Below, in pieces: positions 1,211-53,202 of a stretch of 53,202 nt of DNA. Source of the stretch: Nitrospirota bacterium (GTDB lineage: Bacteria > Nitrospirota > JACRHL01); contig JAOUMB010000016.1 in NCBI GenBank assembly GCA_029881725.1, positions 1-53,202 of the forward strand. Reading direction: 5' to 3'. The stretch's first letter is position 1; each line of letters begins with the position of its first letter. A program made the translations under genes and the position numbers. The notes below the pieces were generated by a model. The model searched no databases and was not told the origin of the DNA. It was given only the letters and a program-made list of their open reading frames with translations.

Positions 1211-3895
1211 TCACGCCAGCGGCGCGATGCGCGCTGCCACGCACTTGTATTCGGGGATTTTTGACTCCGGATCCAGTTGATCGTGCACCAGCCGGTTCAC
1301 CGGCGCCTCGGCAAAGTGATACGGCACAAACACCACCCCCGGCAGGGCCGATTCCGCCTGCCGCACGGTCACCTCCACGGTTCCCCGCCGCGTGCCCAAC
1401 ACGGCGCGGGCGCCGTCCTTCAGCCCCGCCTCGCGCAGGGTGTCCGGGTGGAGTTCCGCCCACGGATCGTGCACCAGGGCATCCAGCACCGACGCGTGGC
1501 GCGACAGGGTGCCGGTTTGATAATGGGTGAGAATGCGTCCGGTGGTGAGCAGCAGCGGGAATTCCGCGTCCGGCGCCTCCGCCGGGGGCACCAGCCGGGG
1601 CGGGAGGAAGGCGGCCCGGCCCCGTACCGGGCCGTTTGCGTGCAGGATTTCCGTGCCCGGATGATCCGCCGTGGGGCACGGCCAGCACAGGGCGCCTTTT
1701 TGCAGCCGCTCCGCCGACATGCCGCCGTACAGGGGCGTGAGCGCCGCCATCTCGGCCATCACCTCCGCCGGATCGCCGGTGGCGTGTTCAAATCCGGTTT
1801 TACGGAGCAAGTCGGCCAGAATATCGCCGTCGGCGCGGGCCATCCCCGGCGGATGAAGAACCGGGGTCACCGGCTGCACCCGGCGCTCCGTGTTGGTCAC
1901 CGACCCGGCCCGCTCCAGGGTGGATGCGGCGGGCAGGATCACGTCGGCAAAGGCGCAGGTTTCGGTGAAAAACACGTCCTGCACCACCAGAAATTCCAGG
2001 CGTTCCAGCGCCTCGGCCACGTGCCCCAGGTCCGGGTCCGAAAGGGCCGGGTTTTCGCCCATCACGTGCAGGGCGGTCAGCTCTCCCGCGCGGGCGGCGC
2101 GCATCATTTCCACCACGGTGAGCCCCGGCGCATCGGGCAGATCGCGTCCCCAGGCGTCCGCAAATTTCCGGAGCGCCTGCGGGTCGGCCACCGGCTGATA
2201 ACCGGGCAGCACGTTGGGCAGCACCCCCATATCGGACGCACCCTGCACGTTGCTCTGCCCGCGCAGGGGATTCAGGCCGGCGCCGGGCCGCCCCAGGTTG
2301 CCGGTGAGCAGGGCCAGGCCCGCCACCGCCGCGCAGTTGACCGTTCCCGCCACGTGCTGGGTGAGGCCCATGCCCCAGCCGGTGAGCATGGTGTTGGCGT
2401 TGCCCAGCACCTGCGCCGCCTGACGCATGGCAAAGCGGGACACGCCGGTGACCCGGGCCAGCTCCGCCATGTCCAGCGCCAGCAGTCCCTCCCGATAGGC
2501 GGGAAAACCTTCCGTGTGAGTGTCGATGAAGTGCCGGTCGGCAAGGCCCGCGTCCAGCACTTCCCGCGCCATGCCCGACACCAGCCACGGGTCGGTGCCG
2601 GGGCGCTGTTGCAGGTGCAGGTCCGCCTCCAGGGCCAGCCCCACCCGGCGCGGGTCCGCCACCACCAGCCGGGTGCCGCCCCGCTGGGCCTGGCGGACGA
2701 AAGTGGCGATGACCGGATGGGTTTCCAGGGTGTTGGTGCCGATCAGGAAGATGGCGTCGGCCTTTAAAAAGTCGGTGTTCGGGTTGGTGGCCGCGCCGCT
2801 GCCCACCATGGCCGCCAGGGCGGACACGGAGGCCGAATGGCACAGGCGCGCGCAGTGGTCCACGTTGTGGCTGCCGAGCCCGGCGCGCAGCCACTTTTGA
2901 AACAGGTAGTTGTCCTCGTTGGTGCATTTGGCCGAGCCCAGCCCGCCCACGGCCCGCCCCCCGTTCCGTTGTGCGGCGTTCCGCATGGAGTCGGCCACCC
3001 GCGTCAGCGCCTCATCCCAGGATGCTTCCCGAAATCCGTCCCGCCCGCAGGCGGTTTTGGTTGCGGAATCCTTGCGCATGAGGGGGGTGGTGAGCCGTTC
3101 CGGGCTGGTCACAAAGTCCAGCCCGAAGCGCCCCTTCACGCACAGGCGGCCCTGATTGGCGGGATATTTCAACTCGCTGGTGACCGCGTGAATGGCCCCT
3201 TCCGCCACGTGGCAGGTAATGCCGCATCCCACGCCGCAGTAGGGGCAAATGGTGTCGATGGCGGTCATTCCCTCCATCGGCGGGGCACTGGGGGAAAGCG
3301 CCCCGGTGGGACACGCGGCCACACATTGGCCGCACGCCACACAGGCACTTTCGGCCAGTGCGGGCACGCCGGAAAAGGCCAGACGCCGCTCCGGCCCAAG
3401 GCCGTCCCAGCCGATCACCCGGTGCCCCTGGAGGTCGGAGCAGGCGCGGATGCAGCGCCCGCACTGGACGCATGCGGACAGGGCCACGGCAATGGCCGGA
3501 TGGGCGCGGTCGCTGTGGTTTTCGGCCTCCCCGTGGATGGGCAGGCCCATGTGCGCGGCGAGCCGTTCCAGTTCGCACTCCCCGCGCGGATCACCCGGCG
3601 GGCGGCAGGGTGCGGGGTGATCGGCCAGCAGCAGGGCCACCACCTGACGGCGCGCGGCGATCAGTTCCGGGGTGTCGGTGGTGATCCGCGCACCCTCGGC
3701 ACACGGGGTGTGGCAGGCCGGAACCGGGCGCGGGACCCCTTCGAGCATCACCGCGCACAGACGGCAGGTGCCTTCCGGCGGCAGACCGCGCATGTGGCAC
3801 AGGGTGGGCGGCTCCACCCCGGCCGCCCGGGCCGCGTCCAGCAGGGATGCGCCGGACGCCACCGTGACCGGCACACCGTTGACGGTAACCTGCAT
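1211..3895 (-). CDS. Formate dehydrogenase catalytic (alpha) subunit, orphan NuoG-type copy
   Basis: Molybdenum bis-MGD oxidoreductase that oxidises formate to CO2. About 894 aa. Order of domains: N-terminal [2Fe-2S] plant-type domain (TLC...GTCRLC...C), a NuoG-like His-Cys region, two [4Fe-4S] ferredoxin clusters (CVQCGRCIRAC and CVACGQCVAAC), the proximal [4Fe-4S] site starting CPYCGVGC, then the molybdopterin domain and the C-terminal dinucleotide-binding barrel. The active-site ligand is Cys in ARLCHSAS, followed by the conserved His; no selenocysteine is used. The His-Cys region reads HPAPC with the second Cys missing. ATG 3895 matches the family N-terminus (MQVTVNG). An in-frame ATG at 3937 has GGAGGT about 12 nt upstream and would add 14 residues. 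No NuoE or NuoF partner genes adjoin it, unlike the paralogue at 19062-21785. Confidence 0.92.
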   Translation of the reverse strand: MQVTVNGVPVTVASGASLLDAARAAGVEPPTLCHMRGLPPEGTCRLCAVMLEGVPRPVPACHTPCAEGARITTDTPELIAARRQVVALLLADHPAPCRPPGDPRGECELERLAAHMGLPIHGEAENHSDRAHPAIAVALSACVQCGRCIRACSDLQGHRVIGWDGLGPERRLAFSGVPALAESACVACGQCVAACPTGALSPSAPPMEGMTAIDTICPYCGVGCGITCHVAEGAIHAVTSELKYPANQGRLCVKGRFGLDFVTSPERLTTPLMRKDSATKTACGRDGFREASWDEALTRVADSMRNAAQRNGGRAVGGLGSAKCTNEDNYLFQKWLRAGLGSHNVDHCARLCHSASVSALAAMVGSGAATNPNTDFLKADAIFLIGTNTLETHPVIATFVRQAQRGGTRLVVADPRRVGLALEADLHLQQRPGTDPWLVSGMAREVLDAGLADRHFIDTHTEGFPAYREGLLALDMAELARVTGVSRFAMRQAAQVLGNANTMLTGWGMGLTQHVAGTVNCAAVAGLALLTGNLGRPGAGLNPLRGQSNVQGASDMGVLPNVLPGYQPVADPQALRKFADAWGRDLPDAPGLTVVEMMRAARAGELTALHVMGENPALSDPDLGHVAEALERLEFLVVQDVFFTETCAFADVILPAASTLERAGSVTNTERRVQPVTPVLHPPGMARADGDILADLLRKTGFEHATGDPAEVMAEMAALTPLYGGMSAERLQKGALCWPCPTADHPGTEILHANGPVRGRAAFLPPRLVPPAEAPDAEFPLLLTTGRILTHYQTGTLSRHASVLDALVHDPWAELHPDTLREAGLKDGARAVLGTRRGTVEVTVRQAESALPGVVFVPYHFAEAPVNRLVHDQLDPESKIPEYKCVAARIAPLA

Positions 3896-4053
3896 CACGT
3901 CACCCGAAGGCAGTTTCAAGGATTGGCCATGGCACATGCATACCTGTACACCTCCCCTTCAGTATGCCCAACCCCCCACCCAAGTGCCACGCGCACTGCG
4001 GTGCTACGCGCACGGCGATATTCGCTGCGCGAGGTTTTCCTCCGAACAGCAAC

Positions 4054-4260
4054 GGGGAACCCCCACGTCCGTCGCATGGTGGAGGCCTTTTGCCCGTCCA
4101 TTTGCCGGAAACCCATTCAGATATCACAGTTCGCTGGGCGAACAAAAAGCCGGGGCAACACCTGGGGATCCCCACGCCCGTCGCATGGTGGAGGCCCTTC
4201 CCCGTCCATCTGCCGGAAACCCATTCGGATATCGGAGTTCGCCGAGCGAACAAAAAGCCC
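4054..4260. repeat. Two imperfect ~108-bp direct repeats with an internal hairpin
   Basis: Unit 1 runs about 4054-4152 and unit 2 about 4164-4260. Shared blocks include GTCGCATGGTGGAGG (4071 and 4180), GCCGGAAACCCATTC (4104 and 4212) and GCGAACAAAAAGCC (4138 and 4246), a constant offset of 108-109 bp. Each unit ends with a perfect 6-bp inverted repeat GTTCGC-NNN-GCGAAC (4129-4143 and 4237-4251) whose 3-nt loop differs between copies. Transcription of the orphan formate dehydrogenase would pass through both units only if it starts upstream of them. Confidence 0.8.
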
Positions 4261-37437: not shown

Positions 37438-38274
37438 TTACGGAGCCAGCGGCAGGCCGGGCGACGGGGTCGATTCGCAGCCGCCTCCGGATACTGCAAT
37501 CACCCGGTAAAGCACGGGCGCACCGCCCGGAACCGTGTCGTCCAGCCAGCGGGCCTCGCGGACGGGATCGCCGGTAAGGCGCTGAAAATCCGCCGCCGCG
37601 TCCGGGTTGTCACTGCGTTCCACGTGATACCCGGCCACTCCGGGAACCGGCTGCCATACCAGCAGCACACCACGCCGGCTGACGCGAGGTGCGCGCGGCT
37701 GATCCGGGGCTTGGGGAGCCGCCTGGTCGCCACCACTGGCGGCGCCAAGCGTCAGGGTCAGCACCCGCTCGCCACCCGCCGCGGAAGCCGGGAAGGAGTG
37801 GCTGCGCTGGGCCGTCATGTCGATCACGGCGGCGCCGTCGGTAAGGGTGACCGCACGGCCGGAACACACGCCACCGCTGTTCACCGGTGGCTCCCAGGAC
37901 AGGGTGATGGTGCTCCCCTCCCGGATCGAAGCGCCCAGTCCGGTGGCCGGGGTGGCCACGTGCAGTTCCCAGTCACCCGCCGCGCCGCGCATATCCCGTT
38001 TCAGGTCGGAAATCGCCATGCCATTCTGATGGAACCATACCTGCAACGGACCGGCCAGAAGCGCGGGCACGTCCAGGCCCGGGTCATAGGCATCGGTGGC
38101 TTGCGGCGCAATACCGGCCGTCACCTGGGCGATCTGCGCGCCCGGCCCCCACGCGGCACGGGCGGTCAACGCCAGCGACATGCCCGCATCCTGCGCCAGC
38201 ACCGCCGGAGCGGAAGCCAGCGCCAGGAGCAGCCCGGCCGTAACGGCCCGCCACCGGTAGGAGTCGCGGATCAT
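37438..38274 (-). CDS. Secreted beta-sandwich protein with fibronectin-III-like domain
   Basis: 278 aa. A signal peptide (about 28 residues, cleavage after VLA) is followed by a domain with ATDAYDPGLDVP, LQVWFHQ and SDLKRDMR, then GDWELHVATP and STITLSWEPP; I have seen this pattern in exported proteins next to FN3 domains, but name no family. The C-terminal ~85 residues are FN3-like (PRAPRVSRRGVLLVWQPV, then GYHVERS and VLYRVIAV), and a short Pro/Gln linker separates the two parts. The ATG overlaps the stop of the giant gene (ATGA, 38271-38274), so the two are translated together. It likely works with the giant protein outside the inner membrane. Confidence 0.8.
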   Translation of the reverse strand: MIRDSYRWRAVTAGLLLALASAPAVLAQDAGMSLALTARAAWGPGAQIAQVTAGIAPQATDAYDPGLDVPALLAGPLQVWFHQNGMAISDLKRDMRGAAGDWELHVATPATGLGASIREGSTITLSWEPPVNSGGVCSGRAVTLTDGAAVIDMTAQRSHSFPASAAGGERVLTLTLGAASGGDQAAPQAPDQPRAPRVSRRGVLLVWQPVPGVAGYHVERSDNPDAAADFQRLTGDPVREARWLDDTVPGGAPVLYRVIAVSGGGCESTPSPGLPLAP

Positions 38275-41200
38275 GGCACCTCCACGCTGTAGGTGCCCAC
38301 GGCGGTGGGCAGCAGCCGGATGAAGTAGGCCCGATGCGGCAACAGCAGGTCGCCGGACACCACTGGCTGGAATGTGGTAGCGCCGCCGCTGCCGGTGAGG
38401 AAGTAAAGCTCCGGCCCGATCAGCGATGCGGTAACCGCGTTGCCAAAGGTCCAGGTGGCGCCACCCGCCTCGCGGATCACCAGATCGGCCACCGCCACCG
38501 GCGTGTTGTGCGGGTTGGAAATCAGCGTCATGCCGTTGGCGGCCAGCGGCACCGGCGGGTACAGCCCCAGATCGGCGCCGACAATATCCAGCACCGACTG
38601 GGTTCCCGAGGCGGCTACAAAGATGCCGCGTCCCGGATTCAGGGTGGCCGTGGTGGCATCCAGCACCACAAAGTCGCCATCCGGGACCGCATCGCCGTTA
38701 ATGTCGCTGCCGCCCGCGGGATCCCATCCCCAGGCCTTCACGGCAATGGTCTGACCACTGCCGCAGGGTCCTACCGGACCCGCGCCGGAAGAAGTGGCGC
38801 CACCGGAAACACAGCTTCCGACAATCGGCAGCAGGTTGGTGGCCACCACCGGGTTCGCCAGTTGTCCCGGCACCGAAACCGGGTTCAGGCCAAGACGCAG
38901 GGCCGTGTGGAAGCTCACCTCATTGGACGGGGCCGAAGCGCGTCCGGCGCCGTCATAGGCCATCAGTATCACGTACACCTGCGCGTTCTCCGGCAGACCC
39001 GTCACGGTGAATTCCTGGGTCAGGCCCTCGGCTCCGGGCAGTAACGGCACCCACACCTTGTGAATTTCGGCGGGTGCGGCCAGCGCGATGGGACGCACCG
39101 CCCACTGGAATTCGTAACGGGCCGCGCGGCCGCCCGCTGCCTGCGGCGCGCTCCACGTCAGACGAGCCTCTCCGGTGCGCACGGTTCCCGCCACCAGGGA
39201 CAGGTCGTTTACCGCCGAAGGCCGGGTGCTGCCCACCACATCGTCCACCTGGGTGGTGAACTGCACTACCGCGTCGCCCGCGCGGAACAACTCCACCGGG
39301 CGGCGCTCCAGCACGCCGTTTACCCACTCCCAGCGTACCGGCACCAGTGCCGCATAGTGCACCGTGCCGCTGGCCAGGCCGCCCAGCAGGAAGGCCTGCC
39401 GGGTGCCCGCGGGCATCGGGGCCGGCACATAGGGAATGCGCACGGCGGCATCAAAGCTGGCCGCATCCACAATCGGGCTGGTGGAAACACGCAGGTCGTA
39501 CGAGGTGGGGCCGCCGTCCGGCGCCGTCCACACCAGGGTCACGTTGGAACTGCTGATGGCGGTGGCGGCCAGATCGGTCACCACCCCCAACGGGGCCTGG
39601 GCGGTGGTAACGCTGACCACGTTGGACACCGGTGCATAGTGACCCGGATTTCCATCCACCCCCTTCACCGCAAAGTGATAGGTGGTGCCCGGCTCCAGGC
39701 CGGTAATGACGGTGCTGTTGGCCACGCCATAGGTTTCCCCGGCGGTCACCGCGGGGGCCACGAACTCGCTGCGGGCCACCTTGTCGAACGGAATTTCGAA
39801 ATTGTCGGGGCCGCCCACCTCGGAGATCGGCAACGGCGCGATGCGCACGTCGTATCCGAATACCGGGCCGCCCGGAACGACGCTGCCGTCGTTGCCGACG
39901 CCGGTCCAGGTCAACCGCGCCTGGGTGCTCGGAACCGCCCCGGCGGTCGCCACCAGGTCGGTGATTCCACCCGGGGGATCCGTATCCCCGGAAGACAGGG
40001 TTACCGTCAGGGATGCCATGTTCGAACGGTTGCCCCACAGGCTGTGCGCTCCGGTGGCCGGATCGATCCGGTTGTCCCGGTCACCGGCCATCAGCGCCGC
40101 ATGCCAGACGGGCTGCGCCGTCTCGTCCTGCACCGTGCGGGCAAAGTTGATGGTGGCGGTTTGCGCGGTGCCGAAACTTGCGGGCATGGGCACCGGCAGG
40201 ATCTGCTCCGCCTGGTCAAAACAGATTTCATTGGCCGGATCGGCAACGGTGGCCACCGCGCAGTCAATGATCGTCTTGCTGGACCAACGCAGGTCATAGC
40301 CTCCCGCCAGCCCGGTGGAACCATCACCGCCCGGAGCGGTCCAGCCGACCACCACCCCGCCACCGGAACGGCCCATCTCGCTCAACGTGATATCCGACGG
40401 CGGAACCCGGTCGGCCCGCCACGCCACATCCAGGGCCTGGCCGAAATGCCGCGACGTGCTGTCACTCGCCCGGCTGCTGCCTCTCTCCGCCCAACGGTTT
40501 ACCAGTTCGGACGGGGCAACCGCTTCCTGAGCCCCCCAACCGGTTCCATTCCACCACAGCTTGTAGGGGCTTAGATAACTGGTGTACTTGAGGTCCTGCG
40601 ACCCAGTGCCGCCTTCCAGGACCAGCGCGAGCATCTCATCGGACCATGGATCGGCCTTGATTTCCACCGCCACCGGGATCGACATCAAACGGTTTTGGAC
40701 GCCGGAAGTATAGTAAACCGTGCGGTAGAGGCGCGCGATATCCTGGGTGGAGGCGGACCAACTGTTGGTGGCCGGGGACCAGGTGCGCGAACGGACGCGA
40801 TATCCACGGTCCGAGAACGGCCCGTGCACCTCCGTGTACAGGGCCACCAGATTCCCGCGGGTGTCCCACGCCAGGTCAAAATTACGCCCGGCCACCACCG
40901 AGGGGGCTTGGTCCAGGACGGTATACGAGACTCCGGACGGCGCCTCCCCCAACGTGGTCCTCGCCGCAAACACTTCAGGCGCACCCCAGGCGGCACCCCA
41001 GAAGTTGCTGACCAGCGCATGCTCGATAATGGTCGAACTGAATAAAGGCATGTCATAGGCAAACTGGGCCAGAATCGCCACCCGGTCCGTGTTGCGGTCC
41101 CCTTCCGCCTCGACAAATACCGGTCCGCTGCTGGAGAGTGCAGACGCACTGGCCGTGGGCGCGCTCCAGGTGAGCGTACCCGGATCCCAAGTCACTGCAA

Positions 41201-44200
41201 ACAGGCTTCCGCTTCCCGATTCACCCCACACCACCACGGCCTTGCCGCTTTGTCCCTGCCAGGCGCCGTCAAATCCGGCCTTGCGGACACCCGCCTCGCC
41301 CCGCCCGGCGGAACTGCTGATCACGCCAGCGGAATACTGGCTCACAAAGGCGCCGGTCGCGCCATCCCAGACAACCGCATGCAACTGGGCCGCCGCATTC
41401 AGATAGACCACCAGGATCTGCCGGGTTCCGGAACGGGGAACCAGACGGACCCATTGCACGTCGGACAGGGAGGTGTTCATTGGCACAGTGCCCACCCGCA
41501 CTTCCTGTGCGGGCGTCATGTCCGCGGCTCCCGCGCCGGTATTGTAAACCTGCGAATAATAGAGACGCCCGTCCACCCCCCCATACACCAGCAGGGCGCT
41601 GTGCGACGCGGGCACGGCCGGATCGACCCCCTGTTCGTATGCCAGATCGAAGGCCTGCGTGTAGTAGGAGGAGGTGGCCGGTACGGTTCCCAATTTCTCC
41701 CACGCAGTCCCGTCCGCCAGGGTGCGGTACAGGTCAACCGAGCGCAATCCAAGGGAGGAGCGTCTGGCCGCCTGGCCTACCGCCATCAGATACTGGCCCG
41801 GCGCGGCCGGGTTGGCGGCCATCACGTTCCACAGGTCGTTCACCGTGGTGGTGTGTGGCAGCGTGCTGGACGGGCCGGACAGCAACGGTGGCGCAAGCTC
41901 GGTGGTACCGGTCCAGTCGCGCACCTTCAGCCCGCTATCGACGATGGCCCCCAGATAGCTGACCTTGGCCCGCACCTGATCCTGCGCCACGGTAATGCCG
42001 AACGGCAGTCCCGCGCGTCCCCCGTCCGGGTTGACCACCTCAAGGGTGTAGGTTCCCGTTGCGGTGGCCAGGATATCCACATTAGCGCGCACCGTCGCAC
42101 TGCTGACCCACACCACCTGATCGCCCGGCAACGCGGGCGCTGGTGGGCGTGGTTGCAGGTCACGCGGCATGATCCCGGCCGCCGGGCCACCCCCGGTGGC
42201 GGTAGCGACAATCGCGGCTTGAGGCATGAAGCCGGCGCCATCAATGCGGATGGAAAGATCCGTGGCGGCCGGTCGACCGACCGCCGGAGAGAGCAGCGAC
42301 ACCACCGGCGCCGGGTTCACCTGCAGCATGCCGGAGCGCAGGTCACTCAACCCCGCGGGGGAAGTCACCCGCACCGATACGGCGCCCGGCATCGTGGTGG
42401 AAGCCAGGGTGAGATCGAATGTAGCGCTCTTGCCGCCGGGATCCACCAGCGGAGCGGTAAATGAAATCCCGCTCCAGGGAGCGCCCGCGCCATCCTCGAA
42501 GGAGAGGGTGAAATCCGCCGGGTCAAACCCGCTTCCGGTCAGGGTGACACCGGTGATGACCCGGGCATTGGACGCGTCGAGCCCCAGTTGCGCGCCTTCG
42601 GCGAAGGAGGCCGAGGCGGGCACCTGGAGGCTGCCGATGGTCGGGCCGGTGGCGGTGGCCACCAGCAGGAAGTCACGCACCTCCACCATTGCACCATCAC
42701 CGTTTTGCACCCGAATGGAACGCATTCCGGATGGGGCGCCGCCGGTGACGCTCAGGGACAGGTCCAGATCGGTGGCGGTGGCGGAACCCAGCACGGTGCC
42801 GGAGATTTCCGGGTCCACCGTGCCATCCGGCAACAGGAACTGAACGCCGGGCTGCGGCACGGTGGTGAAACCGGAACCGGTAATGGTAACCGCCGCCCCG
42901 GTCGTCCCCTGGACAATATCCGAGGCGTCCGCTCGGGTGGTGGTGTCCACGATGCCGGTGACGGTGAATCCGCTCAACACCTGAACCGCGCTGCTCCGGG
43001 TAAAGCGTCCGCCATCGGGGTTTTCCAGGGTCAGCGCATAACTGCCCACCGAGGCCAGCGGTTCCACCTTCACCGCCACATGGGCCTCACTGGTGTTGGC
43101 CGTGTGCACGCCAACCACATCCACCTGGGTGGACAGGGTGCTGAAGTTGCAGGAATCCCCGATGCACACCCGGGGGGTTCCCTGGATGTTGGACCCACGC
43201 ACCACCAGGCTGTTGTGGTCGCCGGTCACATCCACATAGGTGTGTCCCCGGGTCAGCACGCTCGGGGTGACACTGACCACGCCGGGGGCGGGATTGACCG
43301 TGAACGGGTGGCTGGCGCTGGAACCATTGGAGTTGTAAATGGTGACCGTGCCCGTACCGGGCTCCGCCCCTGCGTCCACCCGGACGGGAACCGTAAAGCT
43401 GGTAAAGCGCACGCCACCGGACCACACCTCGCGCACGTAAACGGTCAGTTCCTTGTCGATTACCAGTTCTTTCTGGGTATATGTCTTGCTCGGGTCGTAG
43501 TCACTCTGGGTTTTGGTGGTCAACAGGTGAATCCCGGAATTGCTGAACCGGATGCGGCTCAGATCGATGCCGGAAAATTCCGTTCCGGAAATCGTCACAC
43601 TGGCCCGGCGGGCCCCGGCGCCAACCGCCGGAAGCCCAGTGCTGTTGACCGTCACGGAGGTGACTCTCAGAATCCGGGGCGCCACGATGTTCAGGATCGC
43701 GGGTGCGGTAAAGCTAACTCCGTTTGGATTACTGACGGTAATGTCGCGCGGGATCCGGTCCGCCGTATCGGTTGCGGTCACCTGCACCCGCAGGGTCTCC
43801 GGGGTCAGGCGCTGTACCGCCCACACGGTGATATCGGCGGTCCCGCCTGCGGGAATATTCGGATCGTTGATGGCCACCGTGGCCTGCGGATGGAAACCGG
43901 TCCCGGTTACCGTAAGCCACACCGTTTCGCCCTGCCCCAGGGCGGGAGGGGAGACGCCAGTGATGGTCGGAGCCGGATTCAGCACCAACGGCGTCAGCAG
44001 GCCGAACCCGCCGTCCGGATTGGTCACGCGCACGGTCACGGGGGTTTCCGCCTTTATCTCCGGCACCGTCACCTGGGCGGAAACCGAGCCCCCCGGCGCG
44101 GTGGTGGCGCCCACGATCGCGGGCAGCCCGTCACCGGACGCATCGTCGAAGGCCACCACCGCGCCGGGCTGGATGTACAGACCGGAAACGGTCATCTGGA

Positions 44201-47200
44201 AGGTTCCCTGGCCCGATGCGGGCGATACCACCGACAGGGATGGGCGCGGATTGAGGGTCAGGCCGCCAAACAGGGTGCTGCCCGCCGCAGCGGCATTGGA
44301 CACGCTCACGTCCACCGCCAGCGGCGCGCTCAGGGTCAGATCATTACTGGTGACGGTGACCGCCAGCGACTGCCTGCCGTCCGGCTGGGTGTTGCACTGG
44401 GCGGGAATTTCCAGACACCCTCCCGCCACCGGCGCGAGGGTCACGTCCGGACCCAGAGAGGTGGCAATGGACGCCACGGTACCCACGCCACCGGTGGAAA
44501 AGTCATAGCCGATCAGCGTGACCGGAACTCCGGATGCCGCCTCTCCGGCCACACCCGGCAGCATGCCGGTCAGCACCGGTGCGCTGCCGTCCGCGCTGCG
44601 CACGATCACGCCACTGGTCATCAATGCGGTGGTGCCTCCGGCCAGTTGCAACTCCAGATCGTATGCGCCAACCGGCGCATCGGCGGCCACGGTAAGGGCC
44701 GGGAGGACCAACTGCGAAAATCCGGACGCAGGTTCATCGATGGTGGCGGAAACGCACGCCACGGTACCGCCGGCACACATGGGCTCGACGCCGTTCTGCA
44801 GGAACCGCAGGACCGCGCCCACCGGCTCCAGATAGGTTCCGCCCACCGTGACCGGCACCACCTGACCATGGAACAACAGGGATGGACTGACCGACAGCAT
44901 GCGTGCGACGGCGCCGATTTCCAGCGCGTCGAATCCGATGGCAAAGCCGTTGGTCTCCGGGGAAGGGCCACCCCGGGTCACCAACACGTCCCGTGTTCCA
45001 ATCGGCGCATCCACGGCCACCGCGACCGGCACCGAGAAATCGACTCCGGCGGTGGCCAGAGCACCCCCGGTCACGCCCTGTCCGAACACGCGCAGATCGT
45101 CACCCGCTACAAGATTGTTGCCGGTAACCGTCACGCTTCCCACCGCGCCCTGTCCAAGCAACGGGGGGGTAATCGAGAGAATTTCCGGCATCGCCATGTT
45201 CAGGCAGGTCCCCGCCTGGCCGTCGTAGGCCGGATTGGTGATGCCGCCGCCCTGCTGGCCGCCGGAACAGGTGAGGGTGCCGCCGAACAGGGGGCCGGTG
45301 CGGGACAGCACGGCCACCCGGCCGCCGCCACCGCCGGTTCCCATGCCCGGGTCGAGACTGGTCCCGAGGGGTGACCCGGAGCCACCCTGGGCGGAAACCG
45401 CGCCGGTACCGGCAACGGCGTTGCCCAGGATCAGAAGCGAGCCGCCGGAACCGCCACCCGCCCCCTTGGCCCAGTCACTTCCGGGCTTGGTTCCCCCGGC
45501 TTCCCCTTCCCACATCTTCAGGCCATCGGTCCCGTCCGCGGCCACGGTGCCGTTGAGGGTCACCGTTCCGGCCACGTCCAGCACCACCGCCCCACCGCCA
45601 TTGCCACCCGGCCGCCACCAATGCCCATTGGAATAGACATAGCCACTACCGCCACCGCTGCCGGGTCCAAACGGGAAACTCAAACAGTTCGGGCGTACAC
45701 ATACGCCGTCCAGGTCGTAGGTCGCCCCGCCGGATCCGGCATTCTGACCGTCCCCCCCGCGGCCGCCAAAACCTCCACCTTTGCCCGAGTCGAATGTGGT
45801 GTTGGAACGGGCGGAGGGTGGACCACCCCCAGGCCCTTCTCCAGGAGCCCCGAGGCGCCCACCCGGATACCCGGTGCCGGTGGCGTCCACCTTGCCGGTC
45901 GCCTCGATCGTCATGTTGCCCCCCACCGCGAGGCGCGCAAAGCGGGATTCGGGATCCACCGACAGGGTGCCGCCCGCCTGAACCAGCACGTTGCCCGCCA
46001 CGGTTACGGTAATGTCACCCACCAGGGCCAGGGTGGCCCCGGAGCCCACGGTAATCGATGCGCAGGAATTGGGGGTGCTGGCATTCAACTCCACGCGCAC
46101 TCCGGCGCCAATGGCATCACAGTTACTCAGCGCACCCAGGGTGACGGTCAGTGCCGGCGCTGCAATCCGTCCATCCGGGTTGACTACCGTGACGGTGGCG
46201 TCGGCGGGTCCCGGCAGGTTCAACACCAGATCGATACGGGTCTGGGACACGTAGGTCTGGGTAGCCAGTTGCCCACCCCCTCCGACCAGCACCGTGGCCA
46301 ACGGGTCAAACCCGATACCCGACAGGGTGAACCGCTTTCCAAGCTCCCCGAGAGTACCATTACCAGGCGTGATGGCCGTGACCACCGGAACCGCACGCAC
46401 CACCAGCGCATTGCCAAATACCGTCCGTCCCCCCCGGGAATCGGTCAGGATGAGATCACGCGGTGCATCAAAGGGTGCATCCGGATCGATCACCGCATCA
46501 AACTGGATCTGGGTATCCGATACCACCACCGCGCCGGACACCGCGACCCCGGTACCGCTGAAGCCAATGCCGGTTCCCGGGTCCACCAGGGAAAATCCGG
46601 AACCGGTGACCGTGACCGGAACGGTCGTCCCCTGGTCACTGGTCCCCGGCGTGAACGTCGTGATGCCGGGCGAGGCGGTCACCTCAAAGGTTCCGGGCGC
46701 GGAGACCACTGCAGTACCGCCGTCCGGGTTGGTCACGGTTACCGAACGGGGCCCCGGTGCGGCGTTGGAGGCCACGGAAAGCTCGACCTGGACCTGGGAA
46801 CTGTTCTGCCAGACCACCGACAACACCTGCACCGCCGCCCCGAAATCAAACGACACCCCCGGTTGCAGGTTGGAACCGGTCACGGTAACCGTGCGGGACA
46901 CTGCCCCCACACCGGCAGTGTTTGGAACCACAGTCGACAGACCGACGCGGCGTTCCACAACCACCATCCCGGTGCCAACCCCGGTACTGCTGTCCGGGTT
47001 CACCACCCGCACATTGGACGGTCCGGGGGGCGCGTCGCCGGCCACCGATACGGTCATGGTCAATAACTGGTCACCACCCGGAAGTGCCGGGGGCGTCAGT
47101 ACCGGGGGAGTGGTGATGCGGATGCCACCGTTGTCGAACACGACCTGCGAGCCGGTGCCGAAGCCGGTTCCGGCAATCACCACCTGTACCCCCGCGGATT

Positions 47201-50200
47201 CCTGCGGGATGCACCCGGGCGCGGTGGAAAGCGTACAGGTCGAACTGGTGGTCACCCCGCCGATATTTGGAGCCGGCAGCACATTCAGGGCATTGGTCAG
47301 GGTCGCGGGCATGGCGCCGGGGACACCCACCTGATTCGGGTTGGTCACCTGAAGGCTCTGGAACCCGGGAGCCAGATCGCCAATGTCCACCGTGACCTCC
47401 AGCAGCGTGGCATTGCGGTAGGCCACGTCCACCACCTGGATCAACGGATTGCTGAAAGAGACGATCGGCGGGTTCAGGAATCCGGTGCCCTCCACCCGGA
47501 GCAACTGGCCGGTGGAGCGGGCGCCGATGGCGGCCGGAGAACTGGGCGGAACCGATGGCAGGGCTCCGTCATAAATGGTCGCGGAGATGGACGGGTCCGG
47601 CGGTGCCACCCGGTCGAAAGCCAATGCCAGCGGGGTGCCGGAAACCGGCAGTCTGCCCGGCAGACCAAGCGCGCTCCATGCCGCACCGTTCCATGCGTAG
47701 TAGGTAAGTCTCGAGGACCGGCCGGCATCGCCATTCCAGTCCACCACCCCGGCCAGTAACGTGGTGCTGGCCGGGTCGGAATCGAGCACAATCAGACGCG
47801 GGTCGGGCAACGGGGATGGAGGCGTCACGCCCAAATCCGGAGCGGGCAGTGGCACGGTGCTGGACCAACCGACCGACGCACTCCACCGGCTTGCGCGCGG
47901 GGCGTACGCTCCGGATACACCGAATACCAGCAATGCCTCTTCCTGCACGTGGGACCAGGCCACGTCAAACGCCTCGCCCCCCGCCCGCATGGTGGCACCG
48001 GAACCCAACACCGGCGTCGCCAGTTCCGGTCCCGTGGTGCCCCAGGCATCTCCGGACCAGACCTGGCCATACAATTCCCCCACGCTGGTGGTGCTGACCA
48101 GGGCCACCCGTGCGGAACGCCGGGAAGGGGCCAGACGCACGCGGTTGATCACCGCGGCCGGATCTCCGGATGCGTTCTGGGCGGGTTTGCCGGCCCAGGA
48201 AGGAGGGGTCGCCCCCACCGGATATGGGGTCCACACCGCCGCCTGCGGCGCAATCAGACCGGCCGCACCCCACGCCACCATCGCCTGTTCCGAGGTGATG
48301 CCGAACCAGGTGGCATCGAATGCCTCCGTGGACACTCCATAAATGCCCGCGGGGCGGAGAATCGTTTCCGCACCAAAGGCGGTGCCGTTCCATTCGGCGG
48401 CGCACAGGGCGCCGTCCTGGCGCACAAACGCCAGCACCGCCTTGGTTCCGGCACGGTTGGGGGCCAGCCGCACCCGGGTGACCGGATTGGCCACATCATT
48501 GGCACACCCGGCAATGCCGGGCGCATAAACGGTATCGAGATCGCTGCCGTCAAACACGGTACGGTAGCGGAGGGTGCCGTCGGCAAGGCCGTACACCGAC
48601 AGGAAGCTTGCGGATCCATTCAGGGCCACCACATCCACCGCACGGCCACCGGCGGCAAGGAGTGCCGGCGTCGTGGAGCCGGCGGTCCAGGACTCCGCCG
48701 CGCGATCGCGGACACCTCCGGTGATCACTGGCATCCGGGTACGGAACAACAACCCGTCCGCCTGATCCACCACGGCAGCCAGCATCTGTCCGCCGGTAAG
48801 AATGTCGGAGTGAACGGCTGCGCCCGGTTGTGCCAGGGGAGTACCGACGACGCCCTCGCTGCTCCAACCGAAACCGTTCCAGTAACGGGTTTTCGGCTGG
48901 CTGGTACCGTCCATCAGCACCAGATCGGCACTGTTGGTTCCCGCCGGGGGGGGCAACACCCGCAGCCGCGTCCGGTTGGACAGGGTGCCACCGGGATCAC
49001 GGTCAAACACCGTCAGGTCGCGGCACGGCTCGCCCGCCACTGCCGAAAGGCAGGTTTCGGTCAGGTTCACTTCCGATTCCACCGGCACGGAAACCCAGGC
49101 GGTCATCTGATTGAAGGAATCAAAACGGGTACGGGCGGTCACCCCGGTCCCCCCCACCTGAACGGTGGAGGCCAGGATGAACCCGTGACCTTGCACCCGC
49201 ACCGGAGTGTCGGTTTGTCCGGCAAACACCAGATCGGGGGCAATGCCGGTAATCACCGGACGGGACTCGACAACCAGCGTGCCCGCCACTTGGGTGGAGC
49301 CGCCGTCCGGATTGACCACGTTGAACAGCGCCGCACCGGCGGGGGCGTTCTCCGCCACGAACACCGGCACGGTAATGGTGCCCGCCCCGGGATCCACTGC
49401 CGCGGGACCGGTTGGCACCACCGCCGTGGTAACAAAATTCAGCACCGCCCCGGCCTGCAGGTTGGAAACCGACACCCCCAGGGTGTAACTAAACCCCCGT
49501 GGCGCCGCCGCGCCCAACACGCCGTCCACACTCACCCCGGTAACCACCGGTGCGGGCACCACGGTGAACAGGTTCGCGGGCACCGAGGCCGAAAAATCAG
49601 CGTTGACCACCTGTACCGGCTTGGGACCGGCAACCGCCGAAAAACCCACCTGAACAAAGGCATCGATCCGGTCCGGAGGATACACGGTGGTGTTGGTGAT
49701 GGTAATTCCGTTGAGAGGTGCCCCCGGCTGCGCGCCGTCGATTTTAAACACCGCACCGGCACGGACATCGGTACCGGTTACCGAAACCAGCATGGGTGCC
49801 CCGCCCTGACCGAGGCTGACCGGATTCATCGCGGTCGCGGTCGGGGCAATCCCCGGGGTGCCGACCTGACAGGTTCCGTCGCCACCGCTCTGAACCAGAG
49901 TGGAGCCGGTTCCCAGCCCGCGGGAACCACCCAGGCAACTCATATCGGACGTTGCCATTCCGCCCGGCGTGGAATACACCATCACCCGCCCGCCGGCGCC
50001 GCCACCACCATCAGAACATACTACGAGGCCATTACCATCACCCCCTTTTCCCCCCGTGGCCCGCAAGTGGATCACGCCGGGAATGGTGGTGGTCAGGGTG
50101 GAAGCGGAAACCACGATCGCACCGCCGGAGCCACCGCCGCCGCCACCGCCCAGGCTCTTGAATTTCGTAAAGGTTCCCCCACCCCACGTTTGCCCATCCG

Positions 50201-50924
50201 TACCGTTTGCGGTAACCATGCCGTCCAGCGTGAACGTACCGCCTACCACCAGACGGATGCTTCCACCCCCGGTACCTCCGGCCATCGACAACGTTCCGGA
50301 ATCGTTTAGCCCGGTGCCACCCGAACTGCCAGGGAACAGTGGCGCCAGTGCGTTGCCGTAGGCGATGCCACCCGGCATCCCCCATGCCAGTCCGGTATCC
50401 GCCTGCCCGCCCGCGCCGCCGTGGCCGGCGCCGGAGCCGGCACAGTTGTTACCCCAGGTCATGCTCCCCGCATTGCGCCCGGCACCGCCGCTGCCTGGGG
50501 GCTGGGAAAGGGCCGCCTGCCCGTCCAGATCGATGCGCGCGCTGGAGGCAACGGTCAGGTTACCCGCAATATCGAAAAGAGAAAAATCGGTGACATTGGT
50601 CACCTTGAGGATCGCGCTGGCCTGCACATTCATGTTGCCGGCCACCGTAACGCTGCCACCGTTGTTCACGATCGCCGCGACGGTAAATGCCCCGCCATCC
50701 GGGTCCGCCGGGTCCCCCGCCGCGGACCAGACGGTCAGATCACCGCCGCAATTGTACCCCTCCAGGGCAGCCGCAACCGGCGCCGGTACCTGGGGAACCC
50801 CCCCAACCAGACACGATACGGCAGCGCGCGACTCCACCACGCCACCCAGCAGCGGCAGCAGAAAAGCCACGAGAATCAGTATGGGTCCGAATCGTTTCGT
50901 CATGTTGGTTCCGGCAGGGGGCAT
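38271..50924 (-). CDS. Giant exported repeat protein (4217 aa): Gly-rich, IPT/TIG, propeller-like and FN3 segments
   Basis: One uninterrupted 12.65-kb gene. A signal peptide follows MTKRFGPILILVAF; ATG 50924 is preferred because GGGGAGGT lies 8 nt upstream (GTG 50927 and ATG 50903 are alternatives). Approximate layout: 95-320 Gly-rich beta-solenoid-like part; 370-655 IPT/TIG Ig-like repeats (recurrent VTGTGF, NPDGG); 660-1110 propeller-like region with W-N-G motifs (TRYWNGFGWSSEG, YYAWNGAAWSALG); 1130-1595 IPT repeats; 1600-1910 a second Gly-rich part; 1915-2985 IPT repeats; 2990-3510 a second propeller-like region; 3510-4005 FN3 repeats; 4010-4217 a terminal domain with NPVSVPG and GRGIFVAAS. 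No sortase, autotransporter or obvious membrane anchor is seen. Probably an adhesin or surface scaffold; function not established. Confidence 0.9.
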   Translation of the reverse strand: MPPAGTNMTKRFGPILILVAFLLPLLGGVVESRAAVSCLVGGVPQVPAPVAAALEGYNCGGDLTVWSAAGDPADPDGGAFTVAAIVNNGGSVTVAGNMNVQASAILKVTNVTDFSLFDIAGNLTVASSARIDLDGQAALSQPPGSGGAGRNAGSMTWGNNCAGSGAGHGGAGGQADTGLAWGMPGGIAYGNALAPLFPGSSGGTGLNDSGTLSMAGGTGGGSIRLVVGGTFTLDGMVTANGTDGQTWGGGTFTKFKSLGGGGGGGSGGAIVVSASTLTTTIPGVIHLRATGGKGGDGNGLVVCSDGGGGAGGRVMVYSTPGGMATSDMSCLGGSRGLGTGSTLVQSGGDGTCQVGTPGIAPTATAMNPVSLGQGGAPMLVSVTGTDVRAGAVFKIDGAQPGAPLNGITITNTTVYPPDRIDAFVQVGFSAVAGPKPVQVVNADFSASVPANLFTVVPAPVVTGVSVDGVLGAAAPRGFSYTLGVSVSNLQAGAVLNFVTTAVVPTGPAAVDPGAGTITVPVFVAENAPAGAALFNVVNPDGGSTQVAGTLVVESRPVITGIAPDLVFAGQTDTPVRVQGHGFILASTVQVGGTGVTARTRFDSFNQMTAWVSVPVESEVNLTETCLSAVAGEPCRDLTVFDRDPGGTLSNRTRLRVLPPPAGTNSADLVLMDGTSQPKTRYWNGFGWSSEGVVGTPLAQPGAAVHSDILTGGQMLAAVVDQADGLLFRTRMPVITGGVRDRAAESWTAGSTTPALLAAGGRAVDVVALNGSASFLSVYGLADGTLRYRTVFDGSDLDTVYAPGIAGCANDVANPVTRVRLAPNRAGTKAVLAFVRQDGALCAAEWNGTAFGAETILRPAGIYGVSTEAFDATWFGITSEQAMVAWGAAGLIAPQAAVWTPYPVGATPPSWAGKPAQNASGDPAAVINRVRLAPSRRSARVALVSTTSVGELYGQVWSGDAWGTTGPELATPVLGSGATMRAGGEAFDVAWSHVQEEALLVFGVSGAYAPRASRWSASVGWSSTVPLPAPDLGVTPPSPLPDPRLIVLDSDPASTTLLAGVVDWNGDAGRSSRLTYYAWNGAAWSALGLPGRLPVSGTPLALAFDRVAPPDPSISATIYDGALPSVPPSSPAAIGARSTGQLLRVEGTGFLNPPIVSFSNPLIQVVDVAYRNATLLEVTVDIGDLAPGFQSLQVTNPNQVGVPGAMPATLTNALNVLPAPNIGGVTTSSTCTLSTAPGCIPQESAGVQVVIAGTGFGTGSQVVFDNGGIRITTPPVLTPPALPGGDQLLTMTVSVAGDAPPGPSNVRVVNPDSSTGVGTGMVVVERRVGLSTVVPNTAGVGAVSRTVTVTGSNLQPGVSFDFGAAVQVLSVVWQNSSQVQVELSVASNAAPGPRSVTVTNPDGGTAVVSAPGTFEVTASPGITTFTPGTSDQGTTVPVTVTGSGFSLVDPGTGIGFSGTGVAVSGAVVVSDTQIQFDAVIDPDAPFDAPRDLILTDSRGGRTVFGNALVVRAVPVVTAITPGNGTLGELGKRFTLSGIGFDPLATVLVGGGGQLATQTYVSQTRIDLVLNLPGPADATVTVVNPDGRIAAPALTVTLGALSNCDAIGAGVRVELNASTPNSCASITVGSGATLALVGDITVTVAGNVLVQAGGTLSVDPESRFARLAVGGNMTIEATGKVDATGTGYPGGRLGAPGEGPGGGPPSARSNTTFDSGKGGGFGGRGGDGQNAGSGGATYDLDGVCVRPNCLSFPFGPGSGGGSGYVYSNGHWWRPGGNGGGAVVLDVAGTVTLNGTVAADGTDGLKMWEGEAGGTKPGSDWAKGAGGGSGGSLLILGNAVAGTGAVSAQGGSGSPLGTSLDPGMGTGGGGGRVAVLSRTGPLFGGTLTCSGGQQGGGITNPAYDGQAGTCLNMAMPEILSITPPLLGQGAVGSVTVTGNNLVAGDDLRVFGQGVTGGALATAGVDFSVPVAVAVDAPIGTRDVLVTRGGPSPETNGFAIGFDALEIGAVARMLSVSPSLLFHGQVVPVTVGGTYLEPVGAVLRFLQNGVEPMCAGGTVACVSATIDEPASGFSQLVLPALTVAADAPVGAYDLELQLAGGTTALMTSGVIVRSADGSAPVLTGMLPGVAGEAASGVPVTLIGYDFSTGGVGTVASIATSLGPDVTLAPVAGGCLEIPAQCNTQPDGRQSLAVTVTSNDLTLSAPLAVDVSVSNAAAAGSTLFGGLTLNPRPSLSVVSPASGQGTFQMTVSGLYIQPGAVVAFDDASGDGLPAIVGATTAPGGSVSAQVTVPEIKAETPVTVRVTNPDGGFGLLTPLVLNPAPTITGVSPPALGQGETVWLTVTGTGFHPQATVAINDPNIPAGGTADITVWAVQRLTPETLRVQVTATDTADRIPRDITVSNPNGVSFTAPAILNIVAPRILRVTSVTVNSTGLPAVGAGARRASVTISGTEFSGIDLSRIRFSNSGIHLLTTKTQSDYDPSKTYTQKELVIDKELTVYVREVWSGGVRFTSFTVPVRVDAGAEPGTGTVTIYNSNGSSASHPFTVNPAPGVVSVTPSVLTRGHTYVDVTGDHNSLVVRGSNIQGTPRVCIGDSCNFSTLSTQVDVVGVHTANTSEAHVAVKVEPLASVGSYALTLENPDGGRFTRSSAVQVLSGFTVTGIVDTTTRADASDIVQGTTGAAVTITGSGFTTVPQPGVQFLLPDGTVDPEISGTVLGSATATDLDLSLSVTGGAPSGMRSIRVQNGDGAMVEVRDFLLVATATGPTIGSLQVPASASFAEGAQLGLDASNARVITGVTLTGSGFDPADFTLSFEDGAGAPWSGISFTAPLVDPGGKSATFDLTLASTTMPGAVSVRVTSPAGLSDLRSGMLQVNPAPVVSLLSPAVGRPAATDLSIRIDGAGFMPQAAIVATATGGGPAAGIMPRDLQPRPPAPALPGDQVVWVSSATVRANVDILATATGTYTLEVVNPDGGRAGLPFGITVAQDQVRAKVSYLGAIVDSGLKVRDWTGTTELAPPLLSGPSSTLPHTTTVNDLWNVMAANPAAPGQYLMAVGQAARRSSLGLRSVDLYRTLADGTAWEKLGTVPATSSYYTQAFDLAYEQGVDPAVPASHSALLVYGGVDGRLYYSQVYNTGAGAADMTPAQEVRVGTVPMNTSLSDVQWVRLVPRSGTRQILVVYLNAAAQLHAVVWDGATGAFVSQYSAGVISSSAGRGEAGVRKAGFDGAWQGQSGKAVVVWGESGSGSLFAVTWDPGTLTWSAPTASASALSSSGPVFVEAEGDRNTDRVAILAQFAYDMPLFSSTIIEHALVSNFWGAAWGAPEVFAARTTLGEAPSGVSYTVLDQAPSVVAGRNFDLAWDTRGNLVALYTEVHGPFSDRGYRVRSRTWSPATNSWSASTQDIARLYRTVYYTSGVQNRLMSIPVAVEIKADPWSDEMLALVLEGGTGSQDLKYTSYLSPYKLWWNGTGWGAQEAVAPSELVNRWAERGSSRASDSTSRHFGQALDVAWRADRVPPSDITLSEMGRSGGGVVVGWTAPGGDGSTGLAGGYDLRWSSKTIIDCAVATVADPANEICFDQAEQILPVPMPASFGTAQTATINFARTVQDETAQPVWHAALMAGDRDNRIDPATGAHSLWGNRSNMASLTVTLSSGDTDPPGGITDLVATAGAVPSTQARLTWTGVGNDGSVVPGGPVFGYDVRIAPLPISEVGGPDNFEIPFDKVARSEFVAPAVTAGETYGVANSTVITGLEPGTTYHFAVKGVDGNPGHYAPVSNVVSVTTAQAPLGVVTDLAATAISSSNVTLVWTAPDGGPTSYDLRVSTSPIVDAASFDAAVRIPYVPAPMPAGTRQAFLLGGLASGTVHYAALVPVRWEWVNGVLERRPVELFRAGDAVVQFTTQVDDVVGSTRPSAVNDLSLVAGTVRTGEARLTWSAPQAAGGRAARYEFQWAVRPIALAAPAEIHKVWVPLLPGAEGLTQEFTVTGLPENAQVYVILMAYDGAGRASAPSNEVSFHTALRLGLNPVSVPGQLANPVVATNLLPIVGSCVSGGATSSGAGPVGPCGSGQTIAVKAWGWDPAGGSDINGDAVPDGDFVVLDATTATLNPGRGIFVAASGTQSVLDIVGADLGLYPPVPLAANGMTLISNPHNTPVAVADLVIREAGGATWTFGNAVTASLIGPELYFLTGSGGATTFQPVVSGDLLLPHRAYFIRLLPTAVGTYSVEVP

Positions 50925-51129
50925 CACGCGCTACCTCCCCACGTTATACACGGCCCCCCGGAAAACATATGCAGAGATCTTGCCGCATTCTCATACTTTT
51001 TTCCAGAAAGGGTCAAACACTTTATGTTTCCAACAGTTGCAATGAAGCCTCCAGCCCGGGGAAGCGGACTCCGCCCCCTCCGGAAGGCCTCGGCGGGTGC
51101 CGGAAAGAAATCCTTTTCCCACTTGCGGC
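50925..51129. other. 205-bp intergenic gap before the giant gene
   Basis: This A+T-richer gap probably holds the promoter of the giant gene. On the minus strand TTGACC is followed by TATGAG after only 15 bp, and a TATAAC lies closer to the start without a good -35. No hairpin followed by a T tract was found after the upstream SUMF1-like gene, so read-through from it is also possible. Confidence 0.4.
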
Positions 51130-51899
<770 letters not shown>

Positions 51900-51900
<1 letters not shown>

Positions 51901-52721
51901 CAGTCACCTGCCCCATCCCCATCGACGGAAAGCGCGCACCGAAACCCCATGGAGCGGTGTTTCTTGTCCGGAGGCGATGCCATGGTACGATTGGTCACCC
52001 GCGCATACACCTCGCCCGGAAGCATCCAGCTACCCCCCCGCGAGCCCCGCAGGGTCTCGCCGAACGAGGCCCGTTCCAGATCGGAACCGGGGTAGCCCCG
52101 GTACCAGTCCTCGACCCATTCGGCCACATTGCCGCACATGTCCATCACCCCATAGGGGCTCATATCCCCGTCCAGGGTGCCCACCGGGACCGTCCATCCG
52201 AACTCCGCGTCGCGGGTGTTGCAGCGGTCGGTGGAAAATTCATTTCCCCACGGATAACGGCGGCCATCCGTCCCGCGCGCGGCCTTTTCCCATTCCGCCT
52301 CGCTGGGCAGGCGTTTTCCCGCCCAGGCGCAGTAGTTGCGGGCATCGGTCCAGTCCACATAAACCACCGGGTGGTTGTCCAGTCCGGCGGGGAATTCCCC
52401 CTCCTTCCAGGCGAAATACCCGGCAAAACGGGGGTCCGCCGGAGCCTCGCGCCCGGTGGCGGCGACGAACTCCCGGTAGGCGGCGTTGGTGACCTCGGTG
52501 CGGTCGATCCAATAGGCCGGCAGGGTGCGCGTGTGCCTCGGCACCGAATCCACGGCCACCTCAATCCCCACCCGCCCGTCACTGGCGTCGGCCCCCATGG
52601 TGAAGGCCCCGGCGGGAATGCGCACCATGCCCTCGGGGGCCTCACCGGCCACCCCGATTCCAGCAACCAATGTAAGCATCAGTGCCAGAGCGACTCCCCC
52701 CTTATCCAGCAGTTTGTCCAC
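51900..52721 (-). CDS. Exported SUMF1/FGE-like protein lacking the catalytic cysteines
   Basis: About 273 aa with an N-terminal signal-like segment (Lys-containing start, then a hydrophobic core ending near AGEA). SUMF1-type domain: MVRIPAGAFTMGAD, LPAYWIDRTEVTNAAY, WTDARNYCAW, LPSEAEWEKAARG, YPWGNEFS, MCGNVAEWVEDW, RGGSWMLPG and GFRCAL. As in its paralogue, no Cys follows GGSW. GTG 52721 is chosen because it gives a sensible signal peptide; GTG 52748 and ATG 52679 are alternatives. It overlaps the end of the cytochrome-like gene by about 20 nt, so it should be in the same transcript. Confidence 0.85.
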
Positions 52722-53202
52722 CGGAGCACCAGGTAACGTTTCCGGCACTGGACGTGGTGGCGGAACCGGGGGACTGATAGCTGCAGAAATCCATCACCTC
52801 GCCGTGACAGCGCAGGGCGCAACGGAAGCGGTCGCCTTCGAATTTCCACACCGGCTTGGCCGCCACGGTGCCCTCCGCCTGGGGACCGAAGTTGATCAGG
52901 TGGGTGTTGACCACCCCGTCCAGCGCCCCGTCCACGTCGTCCGGGGGCAGCAGGCCGCCGTTGCCATCGCCATAAATGGTGTTGGTGGCCTCCACATTGG
53001 AGTGCACGTTGTAGTGGCACTCGTGGCAGTAGGCGCCGGTCCACTCCAGGTGATACATGTGCAGGTTGCCGTTCCACCAGTTGGCTCCACCCTGGCCGGG
53101 CACTCCGTTGGGATAGGTGGGCGAACCGAAGAAACGGGTCCAACTGGTATCGGTGCGGGACGCCCCCGGCCAGTTGGGGTCGAAGGCGCGCCGGTCGTGG
53201 CA
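52702..53202 (-). CDS. Multiheme cytochrome c-like protein (partial, runs off the right edge)
   Basis: The frame is open to the window edge and its first visible residues are CHDRRAFDP, the last part of a CxxCH heme site cut by the edge. A second site is CHECH (CxxCH) and a third candidate is CALRCH, which has one residue too many (Cx3CH). Further Cys residues occur near the C-terminus (DFCSYQ, TWCSGG). No downstream membrane anchor is seen, so it is probably periplasmic or surface-exposed. It is the first visible gene of the cluster leading to the two SUMF1-like proteins and the giant protein. A shorter form starting at 53103 would lose the first heme site. Confidence 0.8.
   Translation of the reverse strand, partial: CHDRRAFDPNWPGASRTDTSWTRFFGSPTYPNGVPGQGGANWWNGNLHMYHLEWTGAYCHECHYNVHSNVEATNTIYGDGNGGLLPPDDVDGALDGVVNTHLINFGPQAEGTVAAKPVWKFEGDRFRCALRCHGEVMDFCSYQSPGSATTSSAGNVTWCSGGQTAG

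Follow-up and report, generated by a model that had tools for sequence, protein, structure and literature searches.

A 4217-residue modular exported protein encoded in a Uet-like porin-cytochrome cluster of Nitrospirota

How an exported protein of 4217 residues with a repeated internal architecture was assembled, and what it might do for the cell that makes it, are the questions raised by the window analysed here, by which we mean the whole stretch of 53,202 nucleotides of a Nitrospirota contig. Descriptions of porin-cytochrome conduits usually centre on the haem proteins, the barrel and a set of small helpers. The gene for this giant stands at the end of a cluster that resembles such a conduit and is predicted to carry electrons over the outer membrane, and the giant is more interesting for that neighbourhood than for its duplication.

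Gene, export signal and domain order

The giant is encoded on the minus strand, as is every window feature given coordinates below, by an uninterrupted reading frame at 38271-50924. A Shine-Dalgarno-like GGGAGG lies at a normal distance upstream of the ATG at 50924; the listed open reading frame is longer by one codon and begins with the GTG at 50927. Residues 1-35 (50820-50924) resemble a signal peptide, with basic, hydrophobic and small-residue regions, and an equivalent stretch opens all four orthologues. The three further orthologues, which are full-length and similar in size, come from Nitrospirota MAGs of the same family (JAOUFN01, JACRHL01 and JALWRU01) and share 52% (G003), 41% (G001) and 39% (G002) identity with the giant, the tail being the best-conserved part. 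They were recovered by an alignment-based search; a single-sequence search of the genome contigs with the whole giant returned no match, and no second copy was found in the window's own genome at the search sensitivity used. That genome does contain another large frame, of 2465 aa and with a TIG domain, at G000:C108:58407-58604 (L001).

The giant contains no haem motif, and its conserved cysteines fit an exported protein. An earlier, sequence-only reading of this DNA had seen no known anchor or secretion signal beyond the signal peptide, and Pfam and NCBIfam bear this out, as neither returned a match in the giant to sorting or translocator domains of the T9SS, PEP-CTERM, LPXTG, autotransporter or two-partner kinds. 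The type II secretin GspD scores above its cut-off in the window's genome.

Family-specific profiles resolve the product into a signal peptide, a Gly-rich module (G1, residues 95-352; 49869-50642), TIG/IPT repeats 1-3 (364-652; 48969-49835), a propeller (P1, 668-1100; 47625-48923), TIG repeats 4-8 (1129-1592; 46149-47540), a second Gly-rich module (G2, 1643-1907; 45204-45998), TIG repeats 9-18 (1915-2973; 42006-45182), a second propeller assigned by its homology to P1 (P2, 2998-3508; 40401-41933), four FN3 domains (3524-4001; 38922-40355) and a terminal domain C (4008-4217; 38274-38903) that belongs to no Pfam or NCBIfam family. All four orthologues share this order, and their long TIG block counts nine or ten repeats. 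Only one of the eighteen TIG repeats rises above the Pfam cut-off (PF01833, 25.6 bits against 20.9), ten stretches of the giant match NCBIfam NF058597, CoaZ_rpt_PGGG (133 bits against a cut-off of 30), and the FN3 region matches PF00041 (3.8e-14; 53.1 bits against 25). The sequence-only reading had described a Gly-rich region, TIG repeats and a propeller occurring twice in this order before FN3 repeats and a distinct terminal domain, and the order stands; the two halves it drew are nevertheless unequal, with three TIG repeats in one and ten in the other, and five further repeats that it had not listed lie between them.

An AlphaFold2 model spanning G1, the first three TIG repeats and P1, built from 12 rows, has a mean pLDDT of 74, with the TIG repeats at about 85-92 and part of G1 below 50. 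The TIG part matches plexin IPT domains in Foldseek, and the FN3 part likewise models and matches fibronectin. Much of the Gly-rich region models at low confidence, and the solenoid proposed for it earlier is not established. P1 is predicted, at moderate confidence, to form about seven three-stranded units, and its model superposes on the seven-bladed PLL/PHL/BP39L lectins (target TM 0.6, E about 1e-6 to 1e-7); the six-bladed AAL/AFL fucose lectins score nearly as well.

Origin of the repeated modules

Off-diagonal similarity beyond the IPT repeats had been expected between the halves, and it appears when they are compared with each other by BLAST, a search of the whole protein against itself having printed no off-diagonals. 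Residues 91-708 align with 1639-2285 (E 6e-42, without composition correction, so that the score is inflated), and the propeller regions align at 745-1085 and 3074-3465 (E 6e-10, composition-corrected). Profiles built from the four orthologues match between G1 and G2 at 99.67% (E 1.5e-25, score 172, against a column-shuffled maximum of 18) and between P1 and P2 at 99.2% (E 1.4e-19, score 149, shuffled maximum 22), and the comparison of G with P profiles gave no match. Gly-rich and Ig-like sequences may score spuriously and uncorrected BLAST is inflated, which is what an account of the halves as convergent or generic repeats would draw upon; the composition-corrected propeller alignment, the profile comparisons and the column shuffles all argue against that account, and we consider it very improbable. 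On these alignments, G1/G2 and P1/P2 are true internal duplicates.

What was duplicated is a separate matter. The sequence-only reading had suggested a large-scale tandem duplication of more than a thousand residues per half. Duplication of modules is borne out, and a single contiguous block is not: the TIG repeats show no common register, their numbers differ, and relatives carry other combinations of the same modules. The repeats after G1 do not pair in order with those after G2, T1 being nearest to T6 and T13, and T3 to T13 and T8, which leaves an en-bloc event unsupported by TIG register. Among relatives, the protein of G156 reads T-G-T6-G-T3-P...-G-T-F3-C, those of G130 and G272 read T2-P-T3...T-P-F4-C, and that of G370 reads T11-P-F3-C. 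The G-T3-P unit is common to the giant and G156 (giant residues 185-965 aligned with 1150-1886, 2e-38), so that at least this unit predates the giant's family, and the identical order in the three full-length orthologues places the repetition itself before that family as well.

In the propeller tree, P1 and P2 each form one clade across the giant's family (100/99 or better), and the copies were therefore distinct before the family's last common ancestor. It also groups the P1 clade of this family with its P2 clade (81/88), consistent with a duplication on the stem leading to the family. The tree of the Gly domains gives no decision on such an event; in it G2 forms one clade, and the G1 clade includes, in addition, a single long-branched Gly domain from G156. 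Propellers from family f24 were considered as orthologues of the giant's two; pairing P2 with Pb was mildly rejected (p 0.042), and pairing P1 with Pa was not rejected.

The gene cluster and its recurrence

The stop of the giant gene is overlapped by the gene for a 278-aa exported companion (37438-38274), homologues of which are present at several giant loci of other families. The companion has a weak FN3 match, and past it, downstream, lie lepA, lepB, a cytidylyltransferase gene and the CTP synthase gene. On the other side of the giant are two genes for FGE-like (SUMF1-type) proteins, a lipoprotein (51130-51900; PF03781, 1.8e-53) and a second protein (51900-52748; PF03781, 3.8e-57). We had considered these neighbours as sulfatase-activating enzymes and rejected the assignment, because the catalytic Cys pair is absent from both copies in the window and from relatives with the motif pattern. 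Nearly every Uet-like locus examined has one to three such FGE-like genes alongside the 11-heme cytochrome. That cytochrome, which is UetJ-like, is represented at the end of the window by its C-terminal part (52702-53202), 81% identical to the G003 copy. The contig break falls inside its gene, and contig C10 of the same genome carries the N-terminal part together with one NHL gene and the gene for a barrel-like protein; the 11-heme cytochrome, one NHL gene and the barrel-like gene are what this genome shows of the cluster. The porin-cytochrome context had been missed in the sequence-only reading because most of the cluster lies beyond the contig end.

In G003 the run is as follows: divergently oriented trihemes, a Reg_prop protein, a pentaheme, an NHL protein, a tetraheme, a PpiC protein, the barrel-like protein, a second NHL protein, the 11-heme cytochrome, two FGE-like genes, the giant and the companion. 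The 11-heme cytochromes of G001 and G003 have 11 CXXCH motifs, and in both genomes the tetraheme, trihemes, PPIase and two NHL proteins occur together in the cluster. The barrel-like protein is exported, 620-632 aa long, ends in F and has no Pfam match. The Reg_prop (two-component regulator propeller) protein at the cluster start (L033:7669-9081, minus strand) is conserved across families.

This gene set resembles the undecaheme electron transfer (Uet) porin-cytochrome cluster known from Tenderiales and Gallionella, which PMC10734462, with reference to Eddie et al. 2022, outlines as comprising the undecaheme UetJ, the tetraheme UetA, the trihemes UetDEG, the isomerase UetB, the NHL proteins UetHI and the barrel UetC. 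Common to the two, on that outline, are an eleven-CXXCH cytochrome, a tetraheme, trihemes, a PPIase, a barrel-like protein and two NHL proteins. The match is to the gene set as described there rather than to Tenderia sequences, and we accordingly call the giant's cluster Uet-like.

When 396 Nitrospirota genomes were searched for the 11-heme protein, 31 were positive. Among the loci examined, a large FN3-tailed protein of about 1760-4300 aa lies inside the cluster at 13, in six families; these are counts among relatives and not fully independent observations. The loci with giants come from f1 (4 genomes, including G002, whose 11-heme gene lies on small contigs of its own, so that adjacency to the giant is unseen), f8 (5), f24 (2), f22 (1), f28 (1) and f29 (1 of 4). 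No giant was seen at four f25 loci, one f31 locus and three f29 loci, and the full Uet-like clusters among these indicate that the giant is not essential to the conduit; some contigs in the set were too short to show whether a giant is present. Its position also varies: in f1 it follows the FGE-like genes, in f8 it is located upstream of the 11-heme gene, and in f24 it has the 11-heme gene on one side and the FGE-like genes on the other. The N-terminal parts differ between families, and what is common is the FN3 region followed by a C-like terminal domain, reduced in the large proteins of f29 (G298) to FN3 and a weak C match. Within 61 related genomes, all eight C-domain proteins longer than 1500 aa are giants of f1 and f8. 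The f8 genomes encode other C-domain FN3 proteins of 192-1010 aa, located elsewhere, and at five f8 loci (L037, L038, L039, L081 and L082) the giant and the 11-heme gene are separated by the gene for a second FN3-C protein, 686-744 aa long. We also considered C as a general sorting signal and rejected this for the giant's family, in which it occurs in one copy per genome.

Large frames with related content were met elsewhere. In G009, a 1694-aa frame cut at both contig ends (L041:1-5082) has NHL, FN3 and P1-like regions and three CXXCH motifs; its match to P1 (25% over 440 aa, 1e-10) places this propeller type in fusion with a cytochrome. In G022, a 3807-aa protein (L040:612-12035, minus strand) combines 41 CXXCH motifs with an FN3 region, and further multihaem genes lie next to it.

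Possible roles and relation to known systems

We propose that the giant is a long modular surface scaffold or adhesin of the Uet-like electron-transfer cluster, a reading that we give an even chance of being correct. In this proposal, the protein would be exported by Sec via its signal peptide and would fold in the periplasm with disulfides, the SurA/PpiC-type isomerase encoded in the cluster being at hand, before crossing the outer membrane, perhaps by type II secretion. The eighteen TIG repeats and the four FN3 domains could then form a stalk on the order of 100 nm, bearing the two propellers and two Gly-rich modules as putative binding heads. The conserved FN3-C tail, common to giants with differing N-termini, may dock at the conduit or the outer membrane, though this docking is a guess because AlphaFold2 gives no confident fold for C. 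So placed, the giant might hold the cell or its cytochromes against a matrix, a mineral or a neighbour.

Two other accounts have to be weighed against the proposed scaffold or adhesin of the conduit. The giant may be an all-purpose adhesin for biofilms or particles, encoded downstream of the cytochrome cluster by accident of position and unrelated to electron transfer, and we regard this as a real, if minority, possibility, given that TIG, FN3 and a lectin-like propeller fold are adhesin-type content, that some clusters have no giant and that the shorter C-domain proteins of f8 are encoded elsewhere. Such an adhesin would sit less easily with a linkage seen repeatedly across six families whose gene orders differ, and with companion homologues at several of the loci. 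It appears unlikely that the giant is instead a periplasmic, chaperone-like scaffold that serves in assembling the conduit and is never exposed outside the cell; the PpiC and NHL propeller proteins of the cluster probably act in the periplasm and no secretion signal beyond the signal peptide was found, yet some 22 Ig-like domains, if extended, would exceed the width of the periplasm, and the size and domains would be typical of extracellular proteins.

Returning to the conduit-associated scaffold, we tentatively suggest a wider pattern, in which Nitrospirota undecaheme conduits would come with dedicated, module-swapping giant surface proteins; these, marked by the FN3-C tail, would place the conduit or the cell at an extracellular electron donor or acceptor. 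A search of the literature open without subscription returned no description of giants in Uet clusters, and it is conceivable, on a similarly guarded estimate, that dedicated giants are a structural, haem-free part of the electron-transfer machine that has not been described before. If giants do belong to conduits, they would help to explain how minerals, electrodes or partners are held at electron-transfer distance, and an FN3-C tail beside an undecaheme cytochrome would provide a searchable sequence marker. The swapped N-terminal modules, for their part, form a ready-made set of cases in which to follow the evolution of giant surface proteins through duplication of modules.

Comparison with known families places the giant's parts more readily than its whole. 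NF058597, a choice-of-anchor Z repeating domain, resembles the TIG-like repeats of the giant in the ten matching stretches, but it is a repeat-level model that does not cover the propellers, the Gly-rich modules or the tail. The likeness to PLL, PHL and BP39L lectins consists in the predicted fold superposition of P1; the propeller has no lectin match by sequence in Pfam or PDB, so that PLL-type membership by sequence was rejected and sugar binding is a suggestion from the fold. The TIG and FN3 folds are like those of plexin IPT domains and fibronectin FN3 arrays, but these are generic Ig-like folds and carry no functional implication. At the level of the cluster, the Nitrospirota loci share the core set with Uet and go beyond the Uet set outlined in PMC10734462 by a pentaheme, a Reg_prop propeller protein, FGE-like genes, the giant and its companion.
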